This document shows, piece by piece, positions 1 to 18,552 of a stretch of 21,236 bases of DNA. Under the pieces are notes generated by a model. That model did not search any database. It had not been told where the DNA came from and saw only the letters and a program-made list of their open reading frames with translations. This DNA is from a virus: the IMG/VR virus record IMGVR_UViG_3300046387_000308, positions 1 to 21,236 of that record. One strand, 5' to 3'. Position numbers and translations under genes: made by a program. Within the stretch, counting starts at the first letter, position 1. Each line of letters begins with the position of its first letter.

Positions 1-1383
1 TCATCTGCTTCAAGAGTTATTCAACCAGCAGTTCCAATAGGTATGTATTCTTACAAAACCAATGATGGTGAAGAAGTCTTAGCTATTGGCACTAGAGCTG
101 GAGTAAATGTTTTTTATAATGGCACTTGGTATGACATTACACCTTCTGGTTTTGTTGGTGATGACGTTATTACTTCAACTGGCTATGGTGCATATCACTA
201 TGGCGTAGAAGATTGGGGAGATGCGAGAAGTCAATCAGGCATACAGTTTGATACCAAAAGTTTTTCTTTTGATAACTGGGGAGAACATTTAATTTTTTGT
301 TTTGCAGGTGATGGCAAGATATATCAATGGCGACCTGATGCTGGTAGTGGTAGTCCAGATACCATAGCTACCGCAGTAACTAACGCACCAACTGGCTGTC
401 AAGCAGTTATCGTTACTAATGAAAGACATTTAGTAGCAATCGGTTCTGGTGGTGATCCTCGTAAGATAGCTTGGTCTGATAGAGAAGATAATACAAATTG
501 GACATCTTCTGCTAGGAATACTGCTGGTGATTTACAAATACCTACTGGTGGTCAAGCTAATTACGCAGTCAAGTATGGTAACGATATTATTATTTTTACC
601 GATGTTGGTATAAACAAGATGTACTACGTTGGTAGTCCTTTTGTTTATGGCATACAAGATGCTGGTGTAAATTGTAAGGCAATCAGTCCAAGATCAATTA
701 TATCTTCTGGTAACTTTTTATCCTGGATAAGTGAAAACTCTTTCTTTACTTACGATGGCAGAGTTAGAGAACTTAAATCAGATGTCCATGATTTTATCTT
801 TGACAACTTACAACAAAGAACGCAACAAGCTACCTTTGGCGCACATAACATTGATTACAATGAGATTTGGTGGTTTTTCCCTGTTGGTGATACAGACCAA
901 CTATCGCCAAATAAATATATTATTTGGAATTACTTAGATAATGTTTGGTCTATTGGTGAACTTGATAGAGGTTGCTGGATAGATCAAGGTGTCTTTGATA
1001 ATCCAATCGCTTGTGATTCTGGTGGTTTTGTTTATGAACATGATAAAAGAGCTTTATTTAATTCACCAGGATTAGGCACAAGAAAACCTTTTTGTCTTAC
1101 AGGCCCATTGGAAATAAGTAATGGCGACAAAGTGGCTCAAGTAAATCAAATCTTACCTGACGAAGAAACTACAAGTTTGCCAGCAATAACTTTAAGTTTT
1201 ACTGGTCGTTTTACACCATTAGGTGCAGATACAGATTTTGGTAGTTTTTCTTTCAACGCTGATGGTTATACCGATGCTAGATTTTCTGCTAGACAAGTGC
1301 AGATGAAAATAGAAGGCGATGTTACGCAAGACTTTCAAGTTGGCAAGATTAGATTGGATGTGCAACCTAGAGGTCGTAGATAA
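1..1383 (+). CDS. Phage virion protein, probable tail-hub/stabilisation protein (P22 gp10-like), 5'-truncated
   Basis: The reading frame is open from base 1 (Ser-Ser-Ala-Ser-Arg...) through the ATG at 43 to TAA at 1381, so the true start lies left of the window and 43 should not be taken as the start. About 460 residues are visible. The protein is rich in Gly, Asp and aromatic residues with regularly spaced short beta-type segments such as DGKIYQWRPD, SFFTYDGRVREL, EIWWFFP and YIIWNYLDNVWSIG. That pattern suits a beta-propeller-like head-to-tail connector or stabilisation protein of P22-type podoviruses. It precedes small virion and ejection-protein genes, as gp10-type genes often do. Family assignment is by overall resemblance, not by a catalytic motif. 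A tail-tube or receptor-binding protein is the alternative. Confidence 0.6.
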   Translation, partial: SSASRVIQPAVPIGMYSYKTNDGEEVLAIGTRAGVNVFYNGTWYDITPSGFVGDDVITSTGYGAYHYGVEDWGDARSQSGIQFDTKSFSFDNWGEHLIFCFAGDGKIYQWRPDAGSGSPDTIATAVTNAPTGCQAVIVTNERHLVAIGSGGDPRKIAWSDREDNTNWTSSARNTAGDLQIPTGGQANYAVKYGNDIIIFTDVGINKMYYVGSPFVYGIQDAGVNCKAISPRSIISSGNFLSWISENSFFTYDGRVRELKSDVHDFIFDNLQQRTQQATFGAHNIDYNEIWWFFPVGDTDQLSPNKYIIWNYLDNVWSIGELDRGCWIDQGVFDNPIACDSGGFVYEHDKRALFNSPGLGTRKPFCLTGPLEISNGDKVAQVNQILPDEETTSLPAITLSFTGRFTPLGADTDFGSFSFNADGYTDARFSARQVQMKIEGDVTQDFQVGKIRLDVQPRGRR

Positions 1384-1748
1384 TGGACTTTGATGCTAAA
1401 CCGCAATATATTCAAAGAGCAACAAACGTAAAACACTCTTTTGCAGCAACTACACAACAAACTATTTATACTGCACCAAGCGGTGATGATTTTACCTTTG
1501 CTGTAATAGAAGGCATATTTGCTTGCGATCATGGCAACCAACAAACCAATTTAGACATATCAGTAACTGATACCAGCTCTAACGAGTTTTTTATATTTAA
1601 ACAACATAATATAGCTGCACATGGCACAGAAGAATTAGTAGTCAATGCAGGTCTTATTTTAACGCAAGGCGAGATTGTCAAAGCGCAAGTTAATCATGCA
1701 AATATAGATTTAGTTATTAGTATTATTGAATATGCAAAGGGTGATTAA
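1383..1748 (+). CDS. Small phage virion protein of unknown function
   Basis: 121 aa. The start ATG overlaps the upstream stop (TAATG), implying translational coupling with the virion protein before it. The protein has an 'IYTAPSGDDFTFAVIEGIFACDHG' type N-terminal half and ends with 'ILTQGEIVKAQVNHANIDLVISIIEYAKGD' (quoted loosely across two segments). This layout, TxxxIYTAPsG followed by a C-terminal Gly-Glu/Asp-x-Ile-x-Ala and VxxSIxE strand, recurs in small all-beta accessory virion proteins of marine phages, which supports a decoration or tail-accessory role. No signal peptide, membrane segment or enzymatic motif is visible. Exact role unknown. Confidence 0.65.
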   Translation: MDFDAKPQYIQRATNVKHSFAATTQQTIYTAPSGDDFTFAVIEGIFACDHGNQQTNLDISVTDTSSNEFFIFKQHNIAAHGTEELVVNAGLILTQGEIVKAQVNHANIDLVISIIEYAKGD

Positions 1749-2112
1749 AAAAGAAGAATGGGAAGTGCATTGGGATTATTGCAAGCAATTTATTGAGCCT
1801 GCATTAAAACATCAAGATGCCTATACAATAGACGATGTAGAAGATAAAATAAGACATGGATTTTTCCATTTGTGGCCAGGTAAGGAATCAGCCTTTATAA
1901 CTGAGATTGTTACTTATCCACAGCACAAAGTAATGAATTTATTATTTTGTGGCGGTAAGTTTGAAGAAATAGAAGAAATATTAACTTCTATTGAAACTTT
2001 TGCTAAAGCCATTGGTATCAAAAGATTATATGGTGGTGGTCGTAAAGGTTGGAAAAGAAAAGCTAAACATCTTGGTTACAAACAAGAATATATGATTAGA
2101 AAAGAATTATGA
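1732..2112 (+). CDS. GNAT-fold-like phage protein (T7 gp13-like)
   Basis: 126 aa from the ATG at 1732. A TTG at 1726 would add two residues (Met-Asn) and is less likely. The start overlaps the previous gene by 17 bases and has no clear Shine-Dalgarno. The sequence runs HGFFHLWPG, then FITEIVTYPQHKVMNLLFCGG, then a helix EEIEEILTSIETFAKAIG, then the end GRKGWKRKAKHLGYK. This strand-helix-'GR.GW.R..K.LGY' pattern is that of small GNAT-superfamily-like proteins commonly encoded next to phage internal virion proteins, of which T7 gp13 is an example. It may be an assembly factor rather than an active acetyltransferase; no substrate can be inferred. Confidence 0.6.
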   Translation: MQRVIKKEEWEVHWDYCKQFIEPALKHQDAYTIDDVEDKIRHGFFHLWPGKESAFITEIVTYPQHKVMNLLFCGGKFEEIEEILTSIETFAKAIGIKRLYGGGRKGWKRKAKHLGYKQEYMIRKEL

Positions 2113-2121
2113 GAAACAACA

Positions 2122-3120
2122 ATGGCTAAAGGCGCAACAACAACAACAGCAGAAGTACCTGATTATCTAAAAGATCTTTATACGGAAGCATCTACTAGAG
2201 GATTAGAAGCTTCTAGCATGGGATTTCAACCATACACAGGTGAAATGGTTGCTGGTTTTACACCAGACCAAGCACAAGTTATGGGAGCAACTAGAGGATT
2301 ATTCGGTCAAGCTATGGCTCTTGATCCTAGAGCTGGAATTAGTAATTTAATTGCGCAAGGCTCACCAAATATTCAAGCAGCTTCCTTATTAGACAATTTC
2401 TCTAATTATCAAAGCAATTTAGAAGAAGCTGCAATAGATCCTTTTTTAGCAGATATAGATAGACGAAGGGATATATTAACATCGCAAGCACAAGACAGAG
2501 CAATAAGAGCTGGTGCATTTGGTGGTAGTCGTTCTGGAATTATAGAATCAGAAGCTACTAGACCGCTAGACGAAGCAACAGCAAGCACTATTGCTGGTCT
2601 AAGATTAAAAGGTTTTCAAGAAGCAGCAAAATTAGCTGATGCAGATGCAGCTCGTAGGCAACAAGTTAATTTGCTACAACCACAATTAGATTTAAAACAA
2701 ATGGGATTTCAAGCTGATTTGTTAGGAAATCAAATAGGAGATCAATATAGAAGTCTTGGTTTATTATCTGGTATTGGTGGACAACAACAAGTATTAGACC
2801 AAGCTAGATTACAAGCACAACGAGCTGAGTTTGAAAGAGAACTTGGCTTCCCTGCTTATCAATTAGGACTTTTACAAGCAGCTTCAGGGCAAATATCTCC
2901 TGCGGTTATTGGACAAAGAACGCAAAAAGAAACTGGCTTGGGTGATATTTTAGCTACTGGTGCAGGTTTAGCTGCTGCTGCTTTTACAGGTGGTTTAGCA
3001 GGCGGTGGTGGTGGTGGTGCATCTGGTGGTAGTGTTGGCACTTCTTTTGCCACTCCTTCTGGAACTGGCGGTGCTTTTTCAACTTCTCCAACATCTTTTA
3101 GTATGTTTTCGGGTATTTAA
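2122..3120 (+). CDS. Probable DNA ejection / internal virion protein
   Basis: 332 aa, starting 9 bases after the preceding stop; an AGAAACAAC stretch upstream is only a weak ribosome site. The middle of the protein is Ala/Gln-rich and helical, with the segment 'RAIRAGAFGGSRSGIIESE' (about residues 127-145), which resembles a motif recurring in phage DNA-transfer/ejection-type structural proteins. The C-terminus is strongly Gly/Ala-rich, including a run of six glycines (about residues 290-310), and could be flexible or membrane-inserting. It is the first of three long helical genes in a row (332, 442, 700 aa). That matches the three-ejection-protein arrangement of P22-type phages (gp7, gp20, gp16) in number, not in detectable sequence identity. 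A tail-assembly protein is the alternative. Confidence 0.55.
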   Translation: MAKGATTTTAEVPDYLKDLYTEASTRGLEASSMGFQPYTGEMVAGFTPDQAQVMGATRGLFGQAMALDPRAGISNLIAQGSPNIQAASLLDNFSNYQSNLEEAAIDPFLADIDRRRDILTSQAQDRAIRAGAFGGSRSGIIESEATRPLDEATASTIAGLRLKGFQEAAKLADADAARRQQVNLLQPQLDLKQMGFQADLLGNQIGDQYRSLGLLSGIGGQQQVLDQARLQAQRAEFERELGFPAYQLGLLQAASGQISPAVIGQRTQKETGLGDILATGAGLAAAAFTGGLAGGGGGGASGGSVGTSFATPSGTGGAFSTSPTSFSMFSGI

Positions 3121-3122
3121 TC

Positions 3123-4451
3123 ATGGCTAGTATATTTGATCCTAATAATCCAACTGCTTTTAACTTGCTTGGCAATCAACAACAGCCTTTTACTATTAAT
3201 AAAGAAAACTATCAACAACCAAACGCAAACGCAAACATAACCGCAAGCGCAAATGGCATGAACAGAAATCAAAAAATTGGATATATGTTATCTGCTTTAA
3301 GCGATGCTTTTGCTGGTAGAGATGTTGCTGGTCGTGCTATGCAAAGGGCGCAAGCTATGAGACAACAAGCAGAAGTTGATAGACAAAGACAAGAAGCGTT
3401 AAGAAAACAAGAATTAATTGCTAGTTTGCCAGAAGATATTCAAAGAATATATGGCGTTTATGGGCCAGATGCAGCTTACAAAGCTCAATATGGTACAACA
3501 ACAGATAATTCAACTCAAATTGAAAGAGATAGACAAAGACTTACAATGCTTGAAAAAATACCAATTGAATTAAGAAGTCCAGAAGATAATCGAACATTAG
3601 TAATGTTAGAACAATCAGTTTATGGAGCGCCTAAAATAATTCCTTTTTATGATAGTTCAGGAAAAGTTGCAAAAAGCATTACATCTATAGATTTAGCAAA
3701 AGATTCAGGTATTGTTAAAAGATTTGAAAAACAAGGTTTATTTACTGTTGGACAAAAACCTAGCGCACAATTTAAAGGAAAAGAATCTACATTTAATATT
3801 ATGGGAGATGATTTTTTACAAACAAAAAACCAACTTAATACTTATAATGACTTAGCATCTATCATAGATGAAAACAGAGATGCTTTTACTGTTGCTGGAT
3901 CAATAGGAAATCTTATTAATAGCGCAAGATATGAAGTACAAAGTGCAGAAAGATTAATTAATTTAAATAACTTTCAAAATAATAATCCTGCTGAATATTC
4001 AAAATTAACAGCATCATTGGAAACGGGTGAAACAGATTCAGGAATTAGTTTTAGCGATATATTAGACAAATTATCTCAAAATCGAGCAGTTGCAAAATCT
4101 ATATTTTTAAAATTAGCTTATGGAACTGCAAAAGAAATAGATCCAAGCGGAAGGCTTTCAGATAATGATGTTAAGATTGCTATGGATATACTTAGCAATC
4201 TTGGCCCAAATGTTGATGCTAATTTAGCAGTCCTTGAAAACTTAGCAAAAACTACTACAAGGGAGTATTTAGATAAATACGATCAAAAATTTAAACAATT
4301 AAGAGATGAAGAACAAATAAGTATTGCTAGTGGATATAGTGATCTTCCACAATTTTTAGGAGGTCGAACAATACGACAGCCTAATATAACTCCACCGCAA
4401 TCAAACAATAATCAAAATGATGATGTTCCAAGAATTAGAATTTCTTTATAA
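3123..4451 (+). CDS. Probable DNA ejection / internal virion protein
   Basis: 442 aa, starting two bases after the upstream stop (TAATCATGG), so it is part of the same mRNA. The N-terminus is Asn/Gln-rich and disordered-looking (residues 1-50). A segment 'ALSDAFAGRDVAGRAMQRAQ' (about 60-80) follows, then a charged coiled-coil-like stretch full of RQRQEALRKQE repeats (about 80-105), then a long helical region. The C-terminal about 25 residues are again Asn/Pro/Gln-rich. The 'L.DAFAG.D....A..RA...R' start followed by a Gln/Arg coiled coil is common in putative internal virion proteins of marine podoviruses. No enzyme motif is seen. The role is inferred mainly from position between two other probable ejection proteins. 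Confidence 0.5.
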   Translation: MASIFDPNNPTAFNLLGNQQQPFTINKENYQQPNANANITASANGMNRNQKIGYMLSALSDAFAGRDVAGRAMQRAQAMRQQAEVDRQRQEALRKQELIASLPEDIQRIYGVYGPDAAYKAQYGTTTDNSTQIERDRQRLTMLEKIPIELRSPEDNRTLVMLEQSVYGAPKIIPFYDSSGKVAKSITSIDLAKDSGIVKRFEKQGLFTVGQKPSAQFKGKESTFNIMGDDFLQTKNQLNTYNDLASIIDENRDAFTVAGSIGNLINSARYEVQSAERLINLNNFQNNNPAEYSKLTASLETGETDSGISFSDILDKLSQNRAVAKSIFLKLAYGTAKEIDPSGRLSDNDVKIAMDILSNLGPNVDANLAVLENLAKTTTREYLDKYDQKFKQLRDEEQISIASGYSDLPQFLGGRTIRQPNITPPQSNNNQNDDVPRIRISL

Positions 4452-4459
4452 AACTTATA

Positions 4460-6562
4460 ATGTCAAAAGTAATATATGAATTTGAACTGCCTAACAAAAC
4501 AATTTTAGAAATTGAAGGCGAACAAGGCAAGCAAGCAGAAGCAACTGCAAAAGCAAAAGATTATATAAAACAAAACTTTAACCAAACAGCACAGCCAGAA
4601 GATTTATCTGCACTTGATGTAGCTAAAGATGTTGGTGTAAGTGCTGCAAGAGGTAAAACAAAAGGAATAGCAGGAACATTAGCATTACCCTCTATGGCAG
4701 AACAAGGTATAGATTATCTTATGAGAAAAATTCCTGGAATGAGTACGCCAGCTAATGTTTTAGAAGAATTTAGACAAAAAAATCCACCTATATTGGGTAT
4801 GCCTGGACTTTTAACTAGAACACCTACATATCAGGACATTATGGGCCTTGTGCCAGAAGGTTTAAGAGAATACGATCCTCAAACAACTGCTGGTGGATAT
4901 GCTGAAACAATCGCAGAATTTACTGCGCCTGGCGGTATTTTTGCTAGAACGCCAAAAGCCATTGGACAAGTTGTTGCAATAGGAACTGGTGCTGGTGCTG
5001 TTCAAGAAACAGCAGAAATTATGAACGCACCTGTTTGGGCGCAAGTTCCAATAACTCTTTCTACAGCTTTAGCTTTAGGATATGCAACTTCTCCAGGCAG
5101 AGCAGCAAAAATTGCAAATCAAGCGTTAAAAGGCGTAGATGATGCAGAAATAGCATTGGCCATGCAATTAGAAAAAAAATTAAAAGAGAAAGGAATAAAC
5201 CTTACAGCTCCAGAATTAATTGATAATAGAATAATTCAAAAATTAGGAGAAACTGTTTATAGCACAGAAAAAGGCGGACAAATTATGTATAACTTCATAA
5301 AGAATAGGCCAGAAGAATTAAACAAAACAGCAGATAGACTGTTAGACGAAATTTCTAAAAGACCAGATTCTTTAAGAGGTGCTTTTAAAGATATAAAAAC
5401 AACAACTAATAAAGCACTTACAGAAGCAACAAAAGATAGAAAATTAAAATCACAAGAAGCAGGTTATAAAATATCAAATGAAGAATTTGTTGATGAATCA
5501 AGTATATCCCAGTTAATAAACAGAGTGGATGAAGAAATATTAAACTTACCAAGCGGCTCTCCAACTATTGCTCAACTTAAACGCTTTAAAACTAGACTTA
5601 CAAAAGAAAAATTAGATGACGATACAATAATTGCAGAAACAAATATTAATAAACTAGATTCTTCCCTTAAAGAGTTTAGACAAAAAATTGATGATTCTTT
5701 TGCATCACCCAATTTACCTAAAGAAAGATTTTTAGATAAAGATGCTTCAAGAATATTTAGTTCTGAAGAAGGCGGTTTATTAGATGATCTTAATGATATT
5801 TTAAGAACAAATTCATCTTATGCAAACGCTAAAGATACTTTTGCAAGACTAAGTAACGATTTAGTTAAACCAGTAGAAGATAACTTAGAGGTATTGTTAA
5901 AAAATAAAATTACTCCTTCTAAAATTAAAGAATTTATATTTAACCCAGAAAAAAACAGCGTGTCTGATATTAAAGCTACATATAAAGTTTTAAATAAAAC
6001 CAATAAAGAAACTTTTCCATTAATGGCAAGAACTTATATAGAAAATGCAGTAGAAAAAGCATTTGTTATGAAGAAAAAAGGAGAAAGTTTAAAATCTGGT
6101 TTTGATTTATATAAAGCCTTATCTGGAACTCCTGCACAAAAAAACAATTTTAATCAAGTTTTAAAAGGAGTTGCCGAAGCACAAGGCGTTAATGAAAATA
6201 ATTTATTATTAGGTTGGAGAACTTTTAGCGAAGGATTAAAAAGAACAGCTAGACTTGCAAATGTCGATAATCCAAGCGCTCCAATAGATCCTAAATTTAT
6301 ACCCAGAGATATAGCTCAAATAGGATCTTTTATGTGGAGAATTAAATTTGCTGGTAAAGCAGCAGAGTTACTTGAACAAAAAGCAATAAAACAGTTAGCA
6401 AACATATTTACGCAAAAAAATTCTGTTGAGTTATTGGTTGAGTTAGGCAAACAAGGTGTTAATTCAAACGATGCTATAAGAAGAATGGCATACATAATAT
6501 CAATAACAGATCCTCAAAGAGAACTTACAAATCAAGAACAAGAACAATCAATGACAGAATAA
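4460..6562 (+). CDS. Large probable ejection / internal virion protein
   Basis: 700 aa, the longest gene in the window, starting 8 bases after the previous stop without a strong Shine-Dalgarno. The N-terminus (residues 2-40: VIYEFELPNKTILEIEGEQG followed by an Ala/Lys-rich helix) resembles the 'YEVELPDG.ilEIeap.gat.eqa...a..yi' module often found at the start of phage internal virion and ejection proteins. Residues about 50-220 contain hydrophobic Gly/Ala-rich helices (around 'VGVSAARGKTKGIAGTLALP' and 'IGTGAGAVQETAEIMNAPVW') that could insert into membrane. The remainder is charged and helical. No lysozyme or transglycosylase motif is evident. By size and position it corresponds to the last of a gp7-gp20-gp16-like set; that is inference from layout. 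Confidence 0.55.
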   Translation: MSKVIYEFELPNKTILEIEGEQGKQAEATAKAKDYIKQNFNQTAQPEDLSALDVAKDVGVSAARGKTKGIAGTLALPSMAEQGIDYLMRKIPGMSTPANVLEEFRQKNPPILGMPGLLTRTPTYQDIMGLVPEGLREYDPQTTAGGYAETIAEFTAPGGIFARTPKAIGQVVAIGTGAGAVQETAEIMNAPVWAQVPITLSTALALGYATSPGRAAKIANQALKGVDDAEIALAMQLEKKLKEKGINLTAPELIDNRIIQKLGETVYSTEKGGQIMYNFIKNRPEELNKTADRLLDEISKRPDSLRGAFKDIKTTTNKALTEATKDRKLKSQEAGYKISNEEFVDESSISQLINRVDEEILNLPSGSPTIAQLKRFKTRLTKEKLDDDTIIAETNINKLDSSLKEFRQKIDDSFASPNLPKERFLDKDASRIFSSEEGGLLDDLNDILRTNSSYANAKDTFARLSNDLVKPVEDNLEVLLKNKITPSKIKEFIFNPEKNSVSDIKATYKVLNKTNKETFPLMARTYIENAVEKAFVMKKKGESLKSGFDLYKALSGTPAQKNNFNQVLKGVAEAQGVNENNLLLGWRTFSEGLKRTARLANVDNPSAPIDPKFIPRDIAQIGSFMWRIKFAGKAAELLEQKAIKQLANIFTQKNSVELLVELGKQGVNSNDAIRRMAYIISITDPQRELTNQEQEQSMTE

Positions 6563-7149: not shown

Positions 7150-7686
7150 ATGAAACCAACCATTCCAAATAGAACAGGTCAAGCAACAAAACAAGATGTT
7201 GTTATGACACCCTATAATACTGCAAAGTGGATAGTTGAACATTTTGAACCAGAAGGCAAAATGTTAGAACCTTGTCGTGGCGATGGTGCTTTCTATACCG
7301 CAATGCAACAATATAATTTTGCAACTAAAGGTACATCTGTAGAAGATGATGATGTTGATTGGTGTGAAATATCAGAAGGTAAAAACTTCTTTGATTATAA
7401 AGGTAAAGTCGATTGGATAATTACTAATCCACCTTATAGTATATTTGATGATTTTTTAAATAAGGCATTTGAAGTTGCAGACAATGTTGTATTCTTTGTC
7501 CCTTTTTCTAAATTATTTAAATCAAAAGGTAATGACCAATCAGTTATGAAATATGGAGATGTAAAAGAAATTGTTAATTTAGGCACTGGTAATAAACATG
7601 GGTTTCCCGTTGGTTTTATGGTTGGTGCAATACATTATCAACGAAATTACAAAGGTAATATAAAATTTTCAAGGAGGTATAACTAA
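7150..7686 (+). CDS. DNA N6-adenine methyltransferase (orphan)
   Basis: 178 aa. S-adenosylmethionine-dependent amino-methyltransferase with motifs in the order X-I-IV: 'TPYNTAKWIVEHF' (20-32), the cofactor loop 'LEPCRGDGAF' (39-48, a variant of the usual D/E-P-x-G-G-x-G) and the catalytic NPPY (93-96). NPPY indicates methylation of the exocyclic amino group of adenine, or less often cytosine. The protein is short for a complete restriction-modification methylase and has little room for a target-recognition domain, which is typical of compact phage enzymes. It starts after GGAGAAGAAG. The nearest nuclease, a PD-(D/E)XK protein, lies 163 bases upstream. Probable role: protecting phage DNA from host restriction or marking it for regulation. 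Confidence 0.85.
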   Translation: MKPTIPNRTGQATKQDVVMTPYNTAKWIVEHFEPEGKMLEPCRGDGAFYTAMQQYNFATKGTSVEDDDVDWCEISEGKNFFDYKGKVDWIITNPPYSIFDDFLNKAFEVADNVVFFVPFSKLFKSKGNDQSVMKYGDVKEIVNLGTGNKHGFPVGFMVGAIHYQRNYKGNIKFSRRYN

Positions 7687-7736: not shown

Positions 7737-8864
7737 ATGAAAAAGATAACCTCAGACAAACTTAACCAAAGCATCAAACAAGTAGTCTGGACTAATAGCA
7801 AAGGCCAGAAACAAATCAGCTACTATCTTAAATATACTTTCAATGGCAAACGCAGAAACATGAAGATTGGTCATGGCGGTATGCCAATACAAACAGTACG
7901 CAAGATTGCAAGTGAACTACAAGCCAAGATGTTGCTAGATACTAGCTTTGATCCTTTGGCTAAGAATGATAAACAGAAACGAACTACTGATGAAGTCTTT
8001 GCTAAATATCAACAACAGTTGGAGATGAACAACAGAAAAACTATTCAAGAGTATGTGCGTTTGTACGAAAAAGACATCAAGCCTGGCTTTGGTCATCTAC
8101 CAATAGATACAATCAGCAGAGGAGATGTTAAGTCTTGGTTTGACGAACTCAGTTTAAGATCTAAATATACTGCCAATCGTTGTCTGACTATTTTAAAGAC
8201 TGTCTTTGAGATTGCGATTGATTACGAATACTTGGAAACCAATCCAGCTAGTAGAATCAAAAAGCACGCAGAGGTAAAAAGAACCAGGCATTACACACCA
8301 GAAGAAAAGCTCAATATCTTTAGAGAATTATTCAGAAGATTAGACGAAGATAACTCTTTGTTGCACTCAGTTAGCTTTATTTTGCTCTTAATATTTACTG
8401 GCGCAAGGAAGTCAGAACTAGCTCGTGCTACATGGGATGACTGGCATGGCGATTATATTGAGCTAAAAGAACATAAAACCGATAAAGATGGCAAAACCAG
8501 AAAAATTTGGTTGAATTCTCAAAGTCGGAGTGTCATACAGACTCTACAAGGCGAGAAAAAGAAAAAAACGATACTTGGTATCAAAAATCCTAAAAGGCTC
8601 TGGAACAGCGTGAAATTAGCTTGTAAAGAATCTTCGCCAAATATAGATAAAATTAGACTGCATGATCTCCGTCATTCCTTTGGAACTGTCGCAAATAGCG
8701 CAAGTGTAGATTTTTTACAGACTGGTGAGCTTATGGGCCACCAATCACTTAGTATGATGAAGCGTTATCAACATATTGAGGATAAAACGAGTAAGGAAAA
8801 CATAGAGAAAATCGGTGATGAGATTCTCAAAGAAATTGATTTACCTACAACTTTTTTTCAATGA
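7737..8864 (+). CDS. int: Tyrosine-family integrase
   Basis: 375 aa site-specific recombinase that would insert the phage genome into, and with an excisionase remove it from, the host chromosome. Residues 1-75 form an arm-site-binding type N-terminus ('YYLKYTFNGKRRNMKIG', '...SFDPLAK'), 85-165 a SAM-like core-binding domain and about 185-350 the catalytic domain. All catalytic residues are visible: Arg224 (TGARKSEL), Lys247 (EHKTDKDGKTR hairpin), His309-x-x-Arg312 (LHDLRH), His335 (GHQS) and the nucleophile Tyr344 (MKRYQHI). The leader AAAAAAGGAGAAGAAG repeats the GGAGAAGAAG-ATG arrangement of the methyltransferase upstream. The 3' end overlaps the convergent DUF1289 gene by 20 bases. It looks intact, implying a temperate lifestyle or recent ancestry of one. 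Confidence 0.95.
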   Translation: MKKITSDKLNQSIKQVVWTNSKGQKQISYYLKYTFNGKRRNMKIGHGGMPIQTVRKIASELQAKMLLDTSFDPLAKNDKQKRTTDEVFAKYQQQLEMNNRKTIQEYVRLYEKDIKPGFGHLPIDTISRGDVKSWFDELSLRSKYTANRCLTILKTVFEIAIDYEYLETNPASRIKKHAEVKRTRHYTPEEKLNIFRELFRRLDEDNSLLHSVSFILLLIFTGARKSELARATWDDWHGDYIELKEHKTDKDGKTRKIWLNSQSRSVIQTLQGEKKKKTILGIKNPKRLWNSVKLACKESSPNIDKIRLHDLRHSFGTVANSASVDFLQTGELMGHQSLSMMKRYQHIEDKTSKENIEKIGDEILKEIDLPTTFFQ

Positions 8865-15719: not shown

Positions 15720-15753
15720 AAGAGAGGAATCGCTAAGGCGATTCCCTCTTTTT
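15720..15753 (+). terminator. Rho-independent terminator
   Basis: Stem GGAATCGC (15726-15733) pairs perfectly with GCGATTCC (15738-15745) around the tetraloop TAAG. It extends by about five more pairs (AAGAG with CTCTT) across one bulged A. The stem ends in TTTTT (15749-15753). It closes the rightward early operon. The next start codon is only 10 bases beyond the T-run, so it may instead work as an attenuator for the winged-helix gene. Confidence 0.75.
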
Positions 15754-15763
15754 GAGAGTAAGA

Positions 15764-16201
15764 ATGAATAAAGATTTTTGGTGGGTAAATTCGAGCGTGG
15801 AGAGTAGCGATAGCGAGAGTGCGGAGATTAGTTTTGCGTTAGCTTTGAAGTATCGAGATGTGAGCAAGTTTAAGCGTGTCGTGTGGTATTGGTATCGTGA
15901 GAACGTAGCGAGGAAAGATCTGAATAGTTCGAGTAAGCTCGTGCTTTGGGCAATTTGTGAGCGGATGCGTTATGAGAGTATGAGTATGCGTGATGCTTAT
16001 GCGTACGTGGGGAAGATGTTAGGGTTATCGCGCGTGAGCGTGAGCAAAAGCGTTTATGCGTTGGTGGATAAAGATATTATTTGGATTGTTGAGGAAGGGC
16101 AAGAGCGTAAGGGGATGAAACGCTTACCGCAACATTCTCGTAAGCGTAAGCATATTTTGTTGGTGGGTTTGGGGAAGTTACTTAGCGACCACTTAGTTTG
16201 A
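15764..16201 (+). CDS. Winged-helix (HTH_36-like) DNA-binding protein, compositionally foreign
   Basis: 145 aa from the ATG at 15764. A TTG at 15752 in frame lies within the terminator T-run and is rejected. Residues from about 52 to 108 ('LNSSSKLVLWAICERM', then 'AYAYVGKMLGLSRVSVSKSVYALVDKDIIWIVEEG' in pieces) follow the HTH_36 pattern, L..s.klvL..l, then A..lglSr.tV...i..L...g.i. Proteins of this type serve as phage or plasmid replication initiators or as regulators. The N-terminus is Ser/Glu-rich and Trp-containing, the C-terminus basic (KRLPQHSRKRKH). The coding sequence is about 47% GC with many GAG, AGC and GCG codons, against roughly 30% in several other lines of the window, suggesting recent transfer. 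The adjacent half-site array could be its target. Confidence 0.7.
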   Translation: MNKDFWWVNSSVESSDSESAEISFALALKYRDVSKFKRVVWYWYRENVARKDLNSSSKLVLWAICERMRYESMSMRDAYAYVGKMLGLSRVSVSKSVYALVDKDIIWIVEEGQERKGMKRLPQHSRKRKHILLVGLGKLLSDHLV

Positions 16202-16328
16202 GGTGTTTCTTTCTGATTCTGCGCTTGTGCTTGTTGAGCGTAGAAGATTTAATTCTATTCTTTCTGGATTGCGAAGTTTTCTTTTTTACTGGTATTGGGC
16301 GTGGGGTTTGAGTTTTCGATCTTTGCAT
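16182..16328 (-). CDS. Possible 48-aa highly basic protein
   Basis: Leftward frame of 48 codons beginning MQRSKTQTPRPIPVKKK and ending KKHLKLSGR; about two in five residues are Lys, Arg or His, and there are no acidic residues at all. It ends 20 bases inside the convergent winged-helix gene. No good Shine-Dalgarno precedes its ATG, which is the main doubt. It would be the last gene of the leftward cluster. If real, an RNA- or DNA-binding or ribosome-associated role is suggested by charge. If not, the 198 bases 16202-16399 hold only the inverted repeat described next. Confidence 0.35.
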   Translation of the reverse strand: MQRSKTQTPRPIPVKKKTSQSRKNRIKSSTLNKHKRRIRKKHLKLSGR

Positions 16329-16338
16329 TGGTTTAGTG

Positions 16339-16390
16339 GAAGGAAGGTTTCAAGGGGAGAATTATCATTATGAAAAAGAAACCTTCCTTC
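16339..16390. repeat. 13-bp perfect inverted repeat
   Basis: GAAGGAAGGTTTC (16339-16351) and GAAACCTTCCTTC (16378-16390) around a 26-base spacer, with no T-run on either side, so it is not a standard terminator. Rightward, the spacer contains GGGGAG and an ATG at 16370 opening a nine-codon frame (MKKKPSFAN, stop) that reads through the right arm. Leftward, it lies between the 42-aa gene and the basic 48-aa frame. It may be an operator, an mRNA-stabilising hairpin at the end of the leftward cluster, or a bidirectional termination aid. Confidence 0.5.
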
Positions 16391-16399
16391 GCTAATTAA

Positions 16400-16528
16400 T
16401 TAACTGCGATACATTTTATCAAGTTCTATGGTTTTTGATACCCAAATTTTCTTGAATTCTAAAGACTTAGCTTGTCGTATAGCAGTCTTTAAGTTCGCAC
16501 GTCTTTTAAAATATAGTTCTTTATTCAT
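16400..16528 (-). CDS. 42-aa protein of the leftward cluster
   Basis: 42 codons, ATG preceded by AAGGAGAGTAACC, an excellent ribosome site. Product starts MNKELYFKRRANLKTAIRQA and continues with a short beta-like stretch (FKKIWVSKTIELDKMYRS). Basic, no Cys, no membrane segment, family not recognised. The junction with the gene upstream has the same layout as the others in the cluster (Shine-Dalgarno at the stop of the previous gene), which supports it. It is followed by the 13-bp inverted repeat. Confidence 0.6.
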   Translation of the reverse strand: MNKELYFKRRANLKTAIRQAKSLEFKKIWVSKTIELDKMYRS

Positions 16529-16539
16529 GGTTACTCTCC

Positions 16540-16809
16540 TTAAATTAATTCTTTGTTGCAGTTATACTCGCCCTCGTTCATGCTTTCCGCCCAAGTCCAT
16601 TTATTATCTATTCTATAAAGAATATCTTTAAAACATGACTCGCCATGAACTACCAATGCTATATCTCCAGACCAACTAGGTGAATCTGGATTATAACTTT
16701 TTAAGATTGCTACATTGTTTAAGTGATTTTCTGTTATTTCAAAACCGCCATAATGATCATTCAATGCTTTTGCTATTTGTTGATAATCTTTTTGTGTTGG
16801 ATTACTCAT
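16540..16809 (-). CDS. Unknown 89-aa protein of the leftward cluster
   Basis: 89 aa, moderately acidic and Asn/Tyr-rich: MSNPTQKDYQQIAKALNDHY, then a beta-rich middle ('NVAILKSYNPDSPSWSGDIALVVHG') and 'WTWAESMNEGEYNCNKELI' at the end. The AGGAGAGTAATT leader sits across the stop of the upstream gene. No recognised domain or catalytic motif. A small globular alpha/beta fold is likely from the helix-then-strands pattern. Position in a cluster of small unknown genes with its own promoter makes a host-interaction role possible, but that is inference only. Confidence 0.75.
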   Translation of the reverse strand: MSNPTQKDYQQIAKALNDHYGGFEITENHLNNVAILKSYNPDSPSWSGDIALVVHGESCFKDILYRIDNKWTWAESMNEGEYNCNKELI

Positions 16810-16811
16810 AA

Positions 16812-16937
16812 TTACTCTCCTTTTGAAAAAAATATATTGTTGGCATAGTCGATGGCTTGTTTTTCGGTTAGTCCTTTTTTCAAACCTCGCTCGACCAAAT
16901 ACTCTAAGTGTGCTTGTACTAAATAATTTCTACTCAT
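16812..16937 (-). CDS. Unknown 41-aa protein of the leftward cluster
   Basis: Start chosen at 16937: this ATG overlaps the end of the upstream gene by 8 bases (AATGAGTAG) and has AAAGAGAACA before it. The frame is open 21 codons further upstream to 17000, but that would overlap the preceding gene by over 70 bases. The product is nearly all helical: MSRNYLVQAHLEYLVERGLK, then 'KGLTEKQAIDYANNIFFSKGE'. It looks like a small helical-hairpin protein. The last codons encode the Shine-Dalgarno of the next gene. No family recognised. Confidence 0.6.
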   Translation of the reverse strand: MSRNYLVQAHLEYLVERGLKKGLTEKQAIDYANNIFFSKGE

Positions 16938-17178
16938 TGTTCTCTTTTTGGTTAAAGTTTGGGTTGAGTCTGATTTCTCTGTCGAATTCGTTTTCCTCAA
17001 CTGGGTTGAAGTTCTCCAATAACGCTTTGCAATAAGCGACCTCGTTCTGTAGCTTCATAGCGGTTTTTATCTTCATAATGCGGTGTAAATGAAACTCTTG
17101 GTTTAATTCGTTGTTTAAATCGTATATGCGATGTTCTAATTGATCTTTGGAAAGACTGTCTAAGTAATCTTTGTTCAT
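16930..17178 (-). CDS. Unknown 82-aa helical protein of the leftward cluster
   Basis: 82 aa, charged and predicted helical: 'YLDSLSKDQLEHRIYDLNNEL' and 'MKIKTAMKLQNEVAYCKALLENF' suggest two amphipathic helices that could form a coiled coil, followed by a polar Asn/Glu tail. Preceded by GAGGAGAAATAACC, a strong ribosome site that overlaps the stop of the gene before. No recognised family. The helical hairpin shape is common in phage proteins that bind host enzymes, but nothing specific points to a target. Confidence 0.7.
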   Translation of the reverse strand: MNKDYLDSLSKDQLEHRIYDLNNELNQEFHLHRIMKIKTAMKLQNEVAYCKALLENFNPVEENEFDREIRLNPNFNQKENNE

Positions 17179-17180
17179 GG

Positions 17181-17549
17181 TTATTTCTCCTCTAATAATT
17201 TATTCCTTTTCTCAATAAAATCATCATCTTCAATATTCCAAGTAAGCCAACCGCCGAAATAATACATAGTCTTGCCATTTATTATCTCTGGCTTAATTTC
17301 AGATAATTCTTCAAGAAATTCCTTTCCATAATCATCGTCAATGTTCATTTCTGGTTTGGTGTAATCAATTTTCATGTTTTCCATAAACTTATTAAATTCA
17401 GATTCCTCAAGATAAGGCATCGCCCAACCATTCCAACCATTACTACTTGCATCTATCCAACAATCATAAATTAAATTTGGATTTTCATTATTTTCATAGT
17501 AATCGTCAAAACATACTTTTGACTTAAATAGCATATTATTTTCTTTCAT
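17181..17549 (-). CDS. Unknown 122-aa acidic protein of the leftward cluster
   Basis: 122 aa, clearly acidic with many Asp, Glu and Asn, and seven Trp or Trp-neighbouring aromatic spots: 'YDCWIDASSNGWNGWAMPYL' and 'MYYFGGWLTWNIEDDDF'. This gives a compact beta-rich, negatively charged protein. Starts two bases after the upstream stop with GAGGAGAAATAATT ahead. Ends KLLEEK, as does the upstream protein, because the last codons double as the next ribosome site. Unknown family. Acidic small early phage proteins often mimic DNA or block host nucleases, so an anti-restriction or anti-CRISPR role is worth testing, though unsupported by homology. Confidence 0.75.
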   Translation of the reverse strand: MKENNMLFKSKVCFDDYYENNENPNLIYDCWIDASSNGWNGWAMPYLEESEFNKFMENMKIDYTKPEMNIDDDYGKEFLEELSEIKPEIINGKTMYYFGGWLTWNIEDDDFIEKRNKLLEEK

Positions 17550-17551
17550 AA

Positions 17552-17905
17552 TTATTTCTCCTCTAAAAGTCCGTAATATTTAAAATTATTAATTGCTACG
17601 TTATATCCAACAACAAAGCCAAACATTTCCTCTTTAGAATTAAATCTTTTTAAGTCATGTCCGTAGTAATGTCCTAAAGTTATGGAATACTTATTAAAAA
17701 ATAGACCTTCTTCTTTTACTGCCTTTGATGTTGCATAACAATCAAAGCCAAACTCTTCCAAGTTTTTTTCAAATTGTGCGCATTGAAAAGCATAGTAATA
17801 TTTATTATCTCCTCTTAATGGAAAAGTAATATGTCTTTTTGCTTGTTTAAATTCTAGTTCTCTTTCTTTGTGAAAGAGTTCCATCTTTTGTTCTAATGTT
17901 TCCAT
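17552..17905 (-). CDS. Unknown 117-aa protein, first gene of the leftward cluster
   Basis: 117 aa, starting about 30 bases after the predicted promoter start, with AAAGGAGAATTATCA before the ATG. The first 25 residues are a charged helix (METLEQKMELFHKERELEFK). A region rich in Tyr and Phe follows ('NKYYYAFQCAQFEKNLEEFGF', 'NKYSITLGHYYGHDLKRF', 'FGFVVGYNVAINNFKYYG'). Two Cys (57 region and in FQCAQF) without a motif. The end is LLEEK. No recognised domain. The aromatic alpha/beta pattern suggests a small globular protein. As first gene behind a strong promoter it is probably the most highly expressed of the group. Confidence 0.75.
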   Translation of the reverse strand: METLEQKMELFHKERELEFKQAKRHITFPLRGDNKYYYAFQCAQFEKNLEEFGFDCYATSKAVKEEGLFFNKYSITLGHYYGHDLKRFNSKEEMFGFVVGYNVAINNFKYYGLLEEK

Positions 17906-17941
17906 TGATAATTCTCCTTTAATTAGTTAATCAATTCGTTT

Positions 17942-17969
17942 ACTTTAGACTAATCAATATCATTGTCAA
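17942..17969 (-). promoter_or_regulatory. Leftward sigma70-type promoter of the small-gene cluster
   Basis: On the minus strand: perfect -35 TTGACA (17969-17964), 16-base spacer, -10 TAAAGT (17947-17942, four of six). Expected start near 17935, about 30 bases before the ATG of the first cluster gene, whose ribosome site AAAGGAG lies in between. It sits in the only divergent gap on this side (17906-18057), between the cluster and the small terminase gene; the rest of the gap is AT-rich with no clear rightward promoter. Confidence 0.6.
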
Positions 17970-18057: not shown

Positions 18058-18552
18058 ATGGAAGCAAAGAAAAAACCAGGAAGAAAGGCGATTAATTTAG
18101 ACCATAACGAAATAGAGCGTTTAGCTGGAATGGGCCTTAATGAGCGTCAAATATGCGCTAGTTTAGGGATTAATCCTTCAACGCTTACCAGAAAGAAACA
18201 TATTAAAAGCATAAAGAACGCACTAGAAAAAGGGAGAGCGAAAGCAATAGCGCAAGTAAGTTCTAAATTATTCGATAATGCTATAGAGGGCAAAGAAACA
18301 TCTATCATTTGGTTTTTAAAGAACCGCGACCCGGATAACTGGAAAGACAGAAACATTTTAGAAACCAATCACACGATAAATTTAAGTCATGTGATCAATT
18401 CCGCAAAAGAACGAATCCCAAATACAACTCAAACAATAAAACGCCTTGACGATTCAATAAACAAAGGCAAGGGAATTTTCTTAGATAACAAAGGCACAGA
18501 GAATAATGGTTCTGGCTCTCTCTCTCCTTCCAAAAAAAAGACAGAATCATAG
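18058..18552 (+). CDS. terS: Terminase small subunit
   Basis: 164 aa. Basic N-terminus and an HTH at about 17-46 ('EIERLAGMGLNERQICASLGINPSTLTRKK') for recognising packaging sites. Then the segment 'LFDNAIEGKETSIIWFLKNRDPDNWKDR' (71-98, in pieces), a hallmark of one small-terminase family in which a helical region leads to 'fiLKnr.Pd.W.dr'. The tail is Ser/Lys-rich. It lies 175 bases before the large terminase, the usual order. No Shine-Dalgarno is visible (AAAGATTAAAATATCTT before ATG). The upstream gap also holds the divergent promoter of the leftward cluster. Role: binds concatemeric DNA and hands it to the large subunit. Confidence 0.8.
   Translation: MEAKKKPGRKAINLDHNEIERLAGMGLNERQICASLGINPSTLTRKKHIKSIKNALEKGRAKAIAQVSSKLFDNAIEGKETSIIWFLKNRDPDNWKDRNILETNHTINLSHVINSAKERIPNTTQTIKRLDDSINKGKGIFLDNKGTENNGSGSLSPSKKKTES

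Follow-up and report, generated by a model that had tools for sequence, protein, structure and literature searches.

In Staphylococcus aureus, the 3′ untranslated region (UTR) of icaR pairs with the ribosome-binding region of its own mRNA via a C-rich anti-Shine-Dalgarno motif, and so represses translation (PMC3868564). In Vibrio cholerae, the small RNAs OppZ and CarZ, which originate from operon 3′ ends, repress their own mRNAs (PMC7398697). The c4 antisense RNA of phages P1 and P7 represses ant; its pairing sequence is located in loops and is complementary to the ribosome-binding region (PMC12197685). Here we describe a putative phage counterpart in IMG/VR virus record IMGVR_UViG_3300046387_000308, a linear record of 21,236 bases, analysed in its entirety and referred to below as the window. 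Seven minus-strand open reading frames (ORFs; L1-L7) fill positions 16182-17905, between g149 and the terminase genes, and a hairpin complementary to the leader of the first of them is located close to the far end of this block. We consider it somewhat better than an even chance that the block constitutes an accessory operon for cargo genes in marine podovirus-like phages, in which the 3′ antisense hairpin would repress translation of the first gene or genes.

As with icaR and OppZ/CarZ, the hairpin of the window has its complement in the ribosome-binding region of the same operon (12/12 nt, predicted from sequence). The present case differs in that it concerns phages, and in that the gene following the target leader is exchanged, with leader and loop kept in register. 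It shares with c4 and with sar of P22 a phage RNA that is complementary to a ribosome-binding region and carries its pairing sequence in loops; those RNAs, however, control antirepressor synthesis, whereas here the controlled genes would encode unrelated small proteins and the RNA is placed furthest from the promoter, at the operon's downstream end. The locus also resembles accessory or anti-defence loci of phages, with a fixed position, high turnover and mostly uncharacterised small, often acidic proteins, including ArdA in one relative (L063; three-digit numbers denote relative contigs). It is distinguished from them by the constant leader and antisense hairpin, and no known anti-defence gene was recognised in the window. 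In phage DSL-LC05 (OR003940), small genes likewise form a leftward array that separates primase from the terminase small subunit gene (TerS), but this array holds repressor protein C, ends at a bidirectional terminator and lacks an anti-leader match. In the literature searched, whose coverage was partial, no phage description of a slot with a leader and antisense hairpin was found. The hairpin tied to an exchangeable slot is the newer and more interesting part of the locus, and was absent from the initial annotation of this DNA.

The distal hairpin and its match to the leader

The hairpin (16339..16390, minus strand) is composed of a 13-bp stem, with arms at 16339-16351 and 16378-16390, and a 26-nt loop (16352-16377); its z score on the minus strand is -5.5. 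It is located on the array strand, downstream (by sequence, 3′) of L6, and in the near clade L7 lies beyond it. On the plus strand the loop repeats the Shine-Dalgarno (SD) leader of L1, GGAGAATTATCA (17906-17917, minus strand), the matching segments being 16356-16367 and 17906-17917, and the minus-strand loop is antisense to this leader along the full 12 nt.

Comparison of the near clade revealed seven versions of the stem, in which pairing is kept by compensatory changes at most positions. In a search for compact stems, all 16 non-Watson-Crick pairs were G-T on the minus strand (A-C on the plus strand) and none the reverse (p 1.5e-5), a bias which points to the leftward strand as the putative folded molecule. 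A covariance model built from near-clade members detected one strong hairpin site per phage, on the minus strand; an Rfam search of the window returned no family. The hairpin also contains a small plus-strand ORF (M K K K P S F A N), which was rejected as a candidate since relatives have lost its ATG but keep the loop core.

The leader and the loop tend to change together, with the exceptions given below. Their versions are GGAGAATTATC(A) in the clade of the window, GGAGAAATATTATG in L145 and L148, AGGAGAGTAAA in L072, L074 and L158, AGGAGGGAATTA in L046 and L049, ATACTTTAGG in L090, TTTGGAGAAG in L092 and GGAGAGTTAA in L056. With one representative for each of 20 leader types, the longest match was 9.1 nt between a leader and its own loop and 6.5 nt in mismatched pairs, a result reached in 0/20,000 permutations; the leader types are kin, and permutation values in these tests are not exact probabilities. 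Duplex energies, calculated with hairpins located independently of the leader, were -11.3 kcal/mol for own and -8.3 kcal/mol for mismatched pairs (0/20,000 permutations). A repeat on 31 contigs not previously used (17 types) gave 7.8 nt for own against 6.4 nt for mismatched pairs, again with 0/20,000 permutations. In these new contigs first leaders match the loop by 7.5 nt on average, compared with 5.7 nt for third and later genes and 5.7 nt for the reverse-strand control.

In several relatives (L113, L124, L128, L072, L074, L078 and L090) a second gene is preceded by the same leader. A gene with another leader has been inserted in front in L113, where gene 2 retains the leader and a 12-nt match. 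Leaders 1 and 2 of L158 match the loop by 12 and 11 nt, respectively, and all others by no more than 8 nt.

Gene turnover behind a constant leader

Relatives were anchored on TerL, and 41 dereplicated complete g149-TerS intervals were compared; array genes were called by a simple script and assigned to families by phmmer clustering at E<1e-3. A leftward array of 4-15 small genes (1.6-4.4 kb) is present in 41/41 of these intervals, and its content amounts to 176 families, 123 of which were seen once. The 16 phages whose TerL is at least 96% identical hold 62 array families (39 seen once), with 12 families at the position of the first array gene. Only L3 is present in all 16 of them, followed by L6 (14) and L4 (12), and these three genes form a partly conserved distal set amid genes of high turnover. 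Acidic proteins (isoelectric point (pI) below 6) account for 60% of 190 array families. The initial annotation had suggested comparing gene content and flanks among relatives; turnover proved to be strong, with the flanks kept.

The promoter match and constant leader occupy 17906..17969 (minus strand), with TTGACA at 17969-17964 and TAAAGT at 17947-17942 (TTGACA-16-TAAAGT, spacing 16 nt, 10/12 consensus match). The perfect TTGACA box reported earlier is indeed present, but by itself the promoter match does not exceed chance, as 4 promoter-like sites were found across the region against 8.8 expected. The match gains weight because relatives hold such boxes more often than shuffled sequences: a TTGACA, TTGACT, TTGCAT or TTGCAA box within 110 nt upstream of the first array gene occurs in 45/60 relatives, versus 9.9 expected from shuffles (maximum 20).

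The promoter-leader is kept in front of unrelated first genes. The intergenic regions of the window and L128 are 96% identical, including all of the last 40 leader bases, and the first genes are alike only as shuffled sequence would be; L153 and L126 share 99% intergenic identity and have unrelated first genes. For the whole set of pairs whose first genes are unlike, intergenic identity has a median of 73%. The promoter-leader does not follow the gene, and what is swapped, as one unit, is therefore the gene immediately behind the leader. The possibility that a strongly conserved junction links all array genes was also rejected, as the junction profile shows little besides the SD. The leaders of L035-L040 and L061-L068 hold a short inverted repeat (GTAGCC...GGCTAC type) just before the SD of the first array gene, and other inverted repeats (TGTAAG...CTTACA) occur in the leaders of further relatives. 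Unrelated array proteins of several families (e.g. in L053, L072, L087 and L090) end in EEVA or LEEK, and the codons for these ends include the SD of the next gene.

The recognisable array proteins of relatives are mainly ArdA, a ParB-methyltransferase, a PAPS-reductase-like protein and nuclease-like matches. ArdA (PF07275) is encoded by the second array gene of L063 (463-1008; Pfam E 3.6e-21, 76.8 bits against a cut-off of 27) and resembles the solved ArdA structure 2w82 (E 3.3e-9). The ParB-methyltransferase and PAPS-reductase-like genes were rejected as array cargo: with TerS as reference, they do not share the strand of the array or lie next to it. Because one relative carries ArdA and turnover is rapid, the cargo may include anti-defence or host-modifying proteins. 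The array probably represents accessory host-attack or anti-defence cargo, ArdA being the only direct evidence. The anti-defence role proposed in the initial annotation is thus favoured by circumstantial evidence, namely ArdA in the array of L063 and an L1 homologue among the small genes of Pelagibacter phage HTVC204P; it finds no counterpart in a recognisable function of the block proteins.

Beside TerS there is a second insertion place, which holds a rightward gene (400-411 aa) encoding a ParB domain and a DNA methyltransferase (L045-L050, L061, L062, L066, L068). A 296-aa gene beside TerS in L096 (7974-8861) is the likely source of the PAPS-reductase/SspD-like match.

Proposed control mechanism and alternative explanations

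The order of the locus is: constant promoter-leader, exchangeable promoter-proximal gene, small genes of high turnover, distal set and hairpin. Leftward transcription through to the end of the operon would yield the hairpin, which could remain within the 3′ UTR or be processed into a small RNA. The loop would pair with the SD leader of gene 1 (and, in some relatives, with that of gene 2) and block ribosome binding. As the last element of the transcript, the hairpin would become available for repression once the operon has been transcribed in full, and the cargo would be made in a limited burst. Recombination at the short leader homology may bring in new cargo, a process in which the AAA_24, SSB-like and PD-(D/E)XK proteins of the phage could assist.

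A broader interpretation, which we put forward more tentatively, is that of an RNA-controlled cargo slot: the constant leader could take interchangeable host-attack or anti-defence genes, any of which the co-evolving distal hairpin could shut off, and this RNA switch may also set superinfection types. Arms-race genes of phages are usually found via their proteins, whereas the leader and hairpin mark the slot whatever gene it holds; a survey of the slot in many environmental phages could therefore yield candidates for anti-defence or host-modifying proteins. Phages would also be added to the small number of systems where the 5′ start of an operon is controlled by RNA from its own 3′ end, and the natural variants of leader and loop make the pairing directly testable by swaps.

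Several observations, besides the kinship of the leader types, weigh against the antisense mechanism or the cargo role. A looser, symmetric stem search gave 24 G-T versus 16 A-C pairs, so that the strand call partly depends on the stem definition, and free (minimum-energy) folding of both strands was uninformative for the G-U bias. The leader/loop match is absent or weak in L035-L040, L082 and L096 and in many of the new contigs (e.g. L183, L197, L199, L203, L204, L207, L212, L218 and L226), and the leader of L121 no longer fits its loop. ArdA occurs in one relative only, and none of the block proteins has a function that could be recognised.

The hairpin might instead act mainly as a terminator, or as an RNA-stabilising end of two convergent transcripts, the identity of loop and leader being incidental. 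We regard this as unlikely. The hairpin does lie between the convergent g149 and array transcripts, and DSL-LC05, a distant relative, has its ordinary bidirectional terminator at the equivalent place; however, the stem differs from an intrinsic terminator in lacking a T run, which is absent on either strand in both the window and near relatives, and the stem was not picked up by the terminator scan. Moreover, L7, which is coding in the near clade, is situated beyond the hairpin, and termination does not require that the loop track the leader. Less likely still is a lysogeny or immunity region, with the antisense RNA as a c4-like determinant through which an incoming phage would have its operon silenced. 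Such a region would agree with the presence of an integrase, with the co-variation of leader and loop by type, like that of immunity specificities, and with the 'repressor protein C' of the equivalent array in DSL-LC05, of which Pfam and PHROGs recognised none in the window. Nevertheless, no antirepressor-like target was found, the slot genes encoding unrelated small proteins without antirepressor similarity; unrelated slot proteins in near-identical phages would be odd for an immunity switch, and lysogeny is a hypothetical trait of this phage group.

The least probable of the three alternatives is that hairpin and leader constitute a DNA recombination element, i.e. inverted copies of the leader folding as a single strand in the manner of an integron attC and serving for cassette entry or inversion of the block. 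Inverted 12-nt copies are present on both sides of the array, the exchanged gene starts at the leader, single-stranded DNA also forms G-T pairs, and the phage encodes a tyrosine integrase. Yet, unlike in an integron cassette array, a strong match to the hairpin model occurs once per phage and not once per cassette, although a diverged attC-like site was not separately searched for. In addition, 0/41 complete arrays are inverted, and the match is centred on the SD, as translation control predicts.

Array genes and genomic setting

The claim of a leftward cluster of small genes was confirmed by the seven minus-strand ORFs, six of which (L1, L3, L4, L5, L6 and L7) we consider coding because substitutions in their homologues fall mostly at third codon positions. 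L1 (17552..17905, 117 aa) is the exchangeable first (slot) gene, with an alpha/beta model. L2 (17181..17549, 122 aa) encodes an acidic (pI 4.2), Trp-rich protein with a WNGWxxPY motif; it is found in few relatives only, with homologues of about 50-80% identity. The distal set comprises L3 (16930..17178, 82 aa), L4 (16812..16937, 41 aa), whose ATG start overlaps the stop of L3, and its last gene, L6 (16400..16528, 42 aa). A longer TTG-start ORF for L4 is unnecessary, as the ATG start suffices. L5 (16540..16809, 89 aa) is a variable insert between L4 and L6, and L7 (16182..16328, 48 aa), directly 3′ of the hairpin, is very basic (pI 12) and confined to the near clade. The excellent ribosome sites earlier ascribed to each gene are a slight overstatement: good SDs are found upstream of L1, L2, L3, L5 and L6, the SD of L4 is weaker and located inside L3, and L7 has none.

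Searches of Pfam and PHROGs with the block proteins of the window gave no confident family and no match to structural or replication proteins, in agreement with the earlier statement that no families are recognisable. The structure prediction recommended there yielded models of L1 and L2 with predicted local distance difference test (pLDDT) values of 91 and 82, respectively; comparison with PDB folds gave no convincing match. L2 has only one borderline viral match, a protein of Bacillus phage Bc431v3 (E 1.8e-3); L2 had no match in phage records, nor did an L2 relative in plasmid records. Relatives of L1 occur in unrelated phage contexts and as gp02 of HTVC204P (444-869), within a run of small genes at the left end. 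Members of the L2 family (WNGWxxPY) in L112 and L023 carry a second small domain as a fusion (181 aa; L112:9998-10540), and in L072 the two domains are separate genes (7942-8460 and 7476-7655). For the array family c12 (104-115 aa), encoded at L072:8463-8786 and in seven further relatives, tblastn detected related sequences in Lactococcus 949-type and Enterococcus phages.

The block lies, as originally described, between the replication and packaging modules. It is flanked on the left by g149 (15752..16201, plus strand), which encodes a replication-initiator-like protein, and on the right by TerS (18058..18552, plus strand), followed by TerL (18728) of the packaging module. The gene order begins with the virion proteins (43-6559); PD-(D/E)XK and methyltransferase genes separate these from the tyrosine integrase (7737), after which come DUF2800/PD-(D/E)XK, AAA_24 and the SSB-like protein, in that order, the primase-helicase (12041) and a methyltransferase (13876). 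No tRNA genes were found within the window. The nearest TerL sequences (~36-50% identity) are those of phage DSL-LC05, Manatee Spring podoviruses and epsilon15-like phages. Weak pointers suggest Pelagibacter as the host: L158 was binned with a Pelagibacter metagenome-assembled genome, and the L1 homologue is from a Pelagibacter phage.

Another long stem with a C/U-rich loop is present beside the terminase genes of L125 (448-509, minus), on the other strand. Upstream of g149, the segment 15623-15693 contains a 23-nt inverted repeat (87%) as well as two copies of GGATAATAyGnGTTATC, and a terminator-like stem comes next (15726-15745); it is possible that these repeats constitute an operator or an origin.

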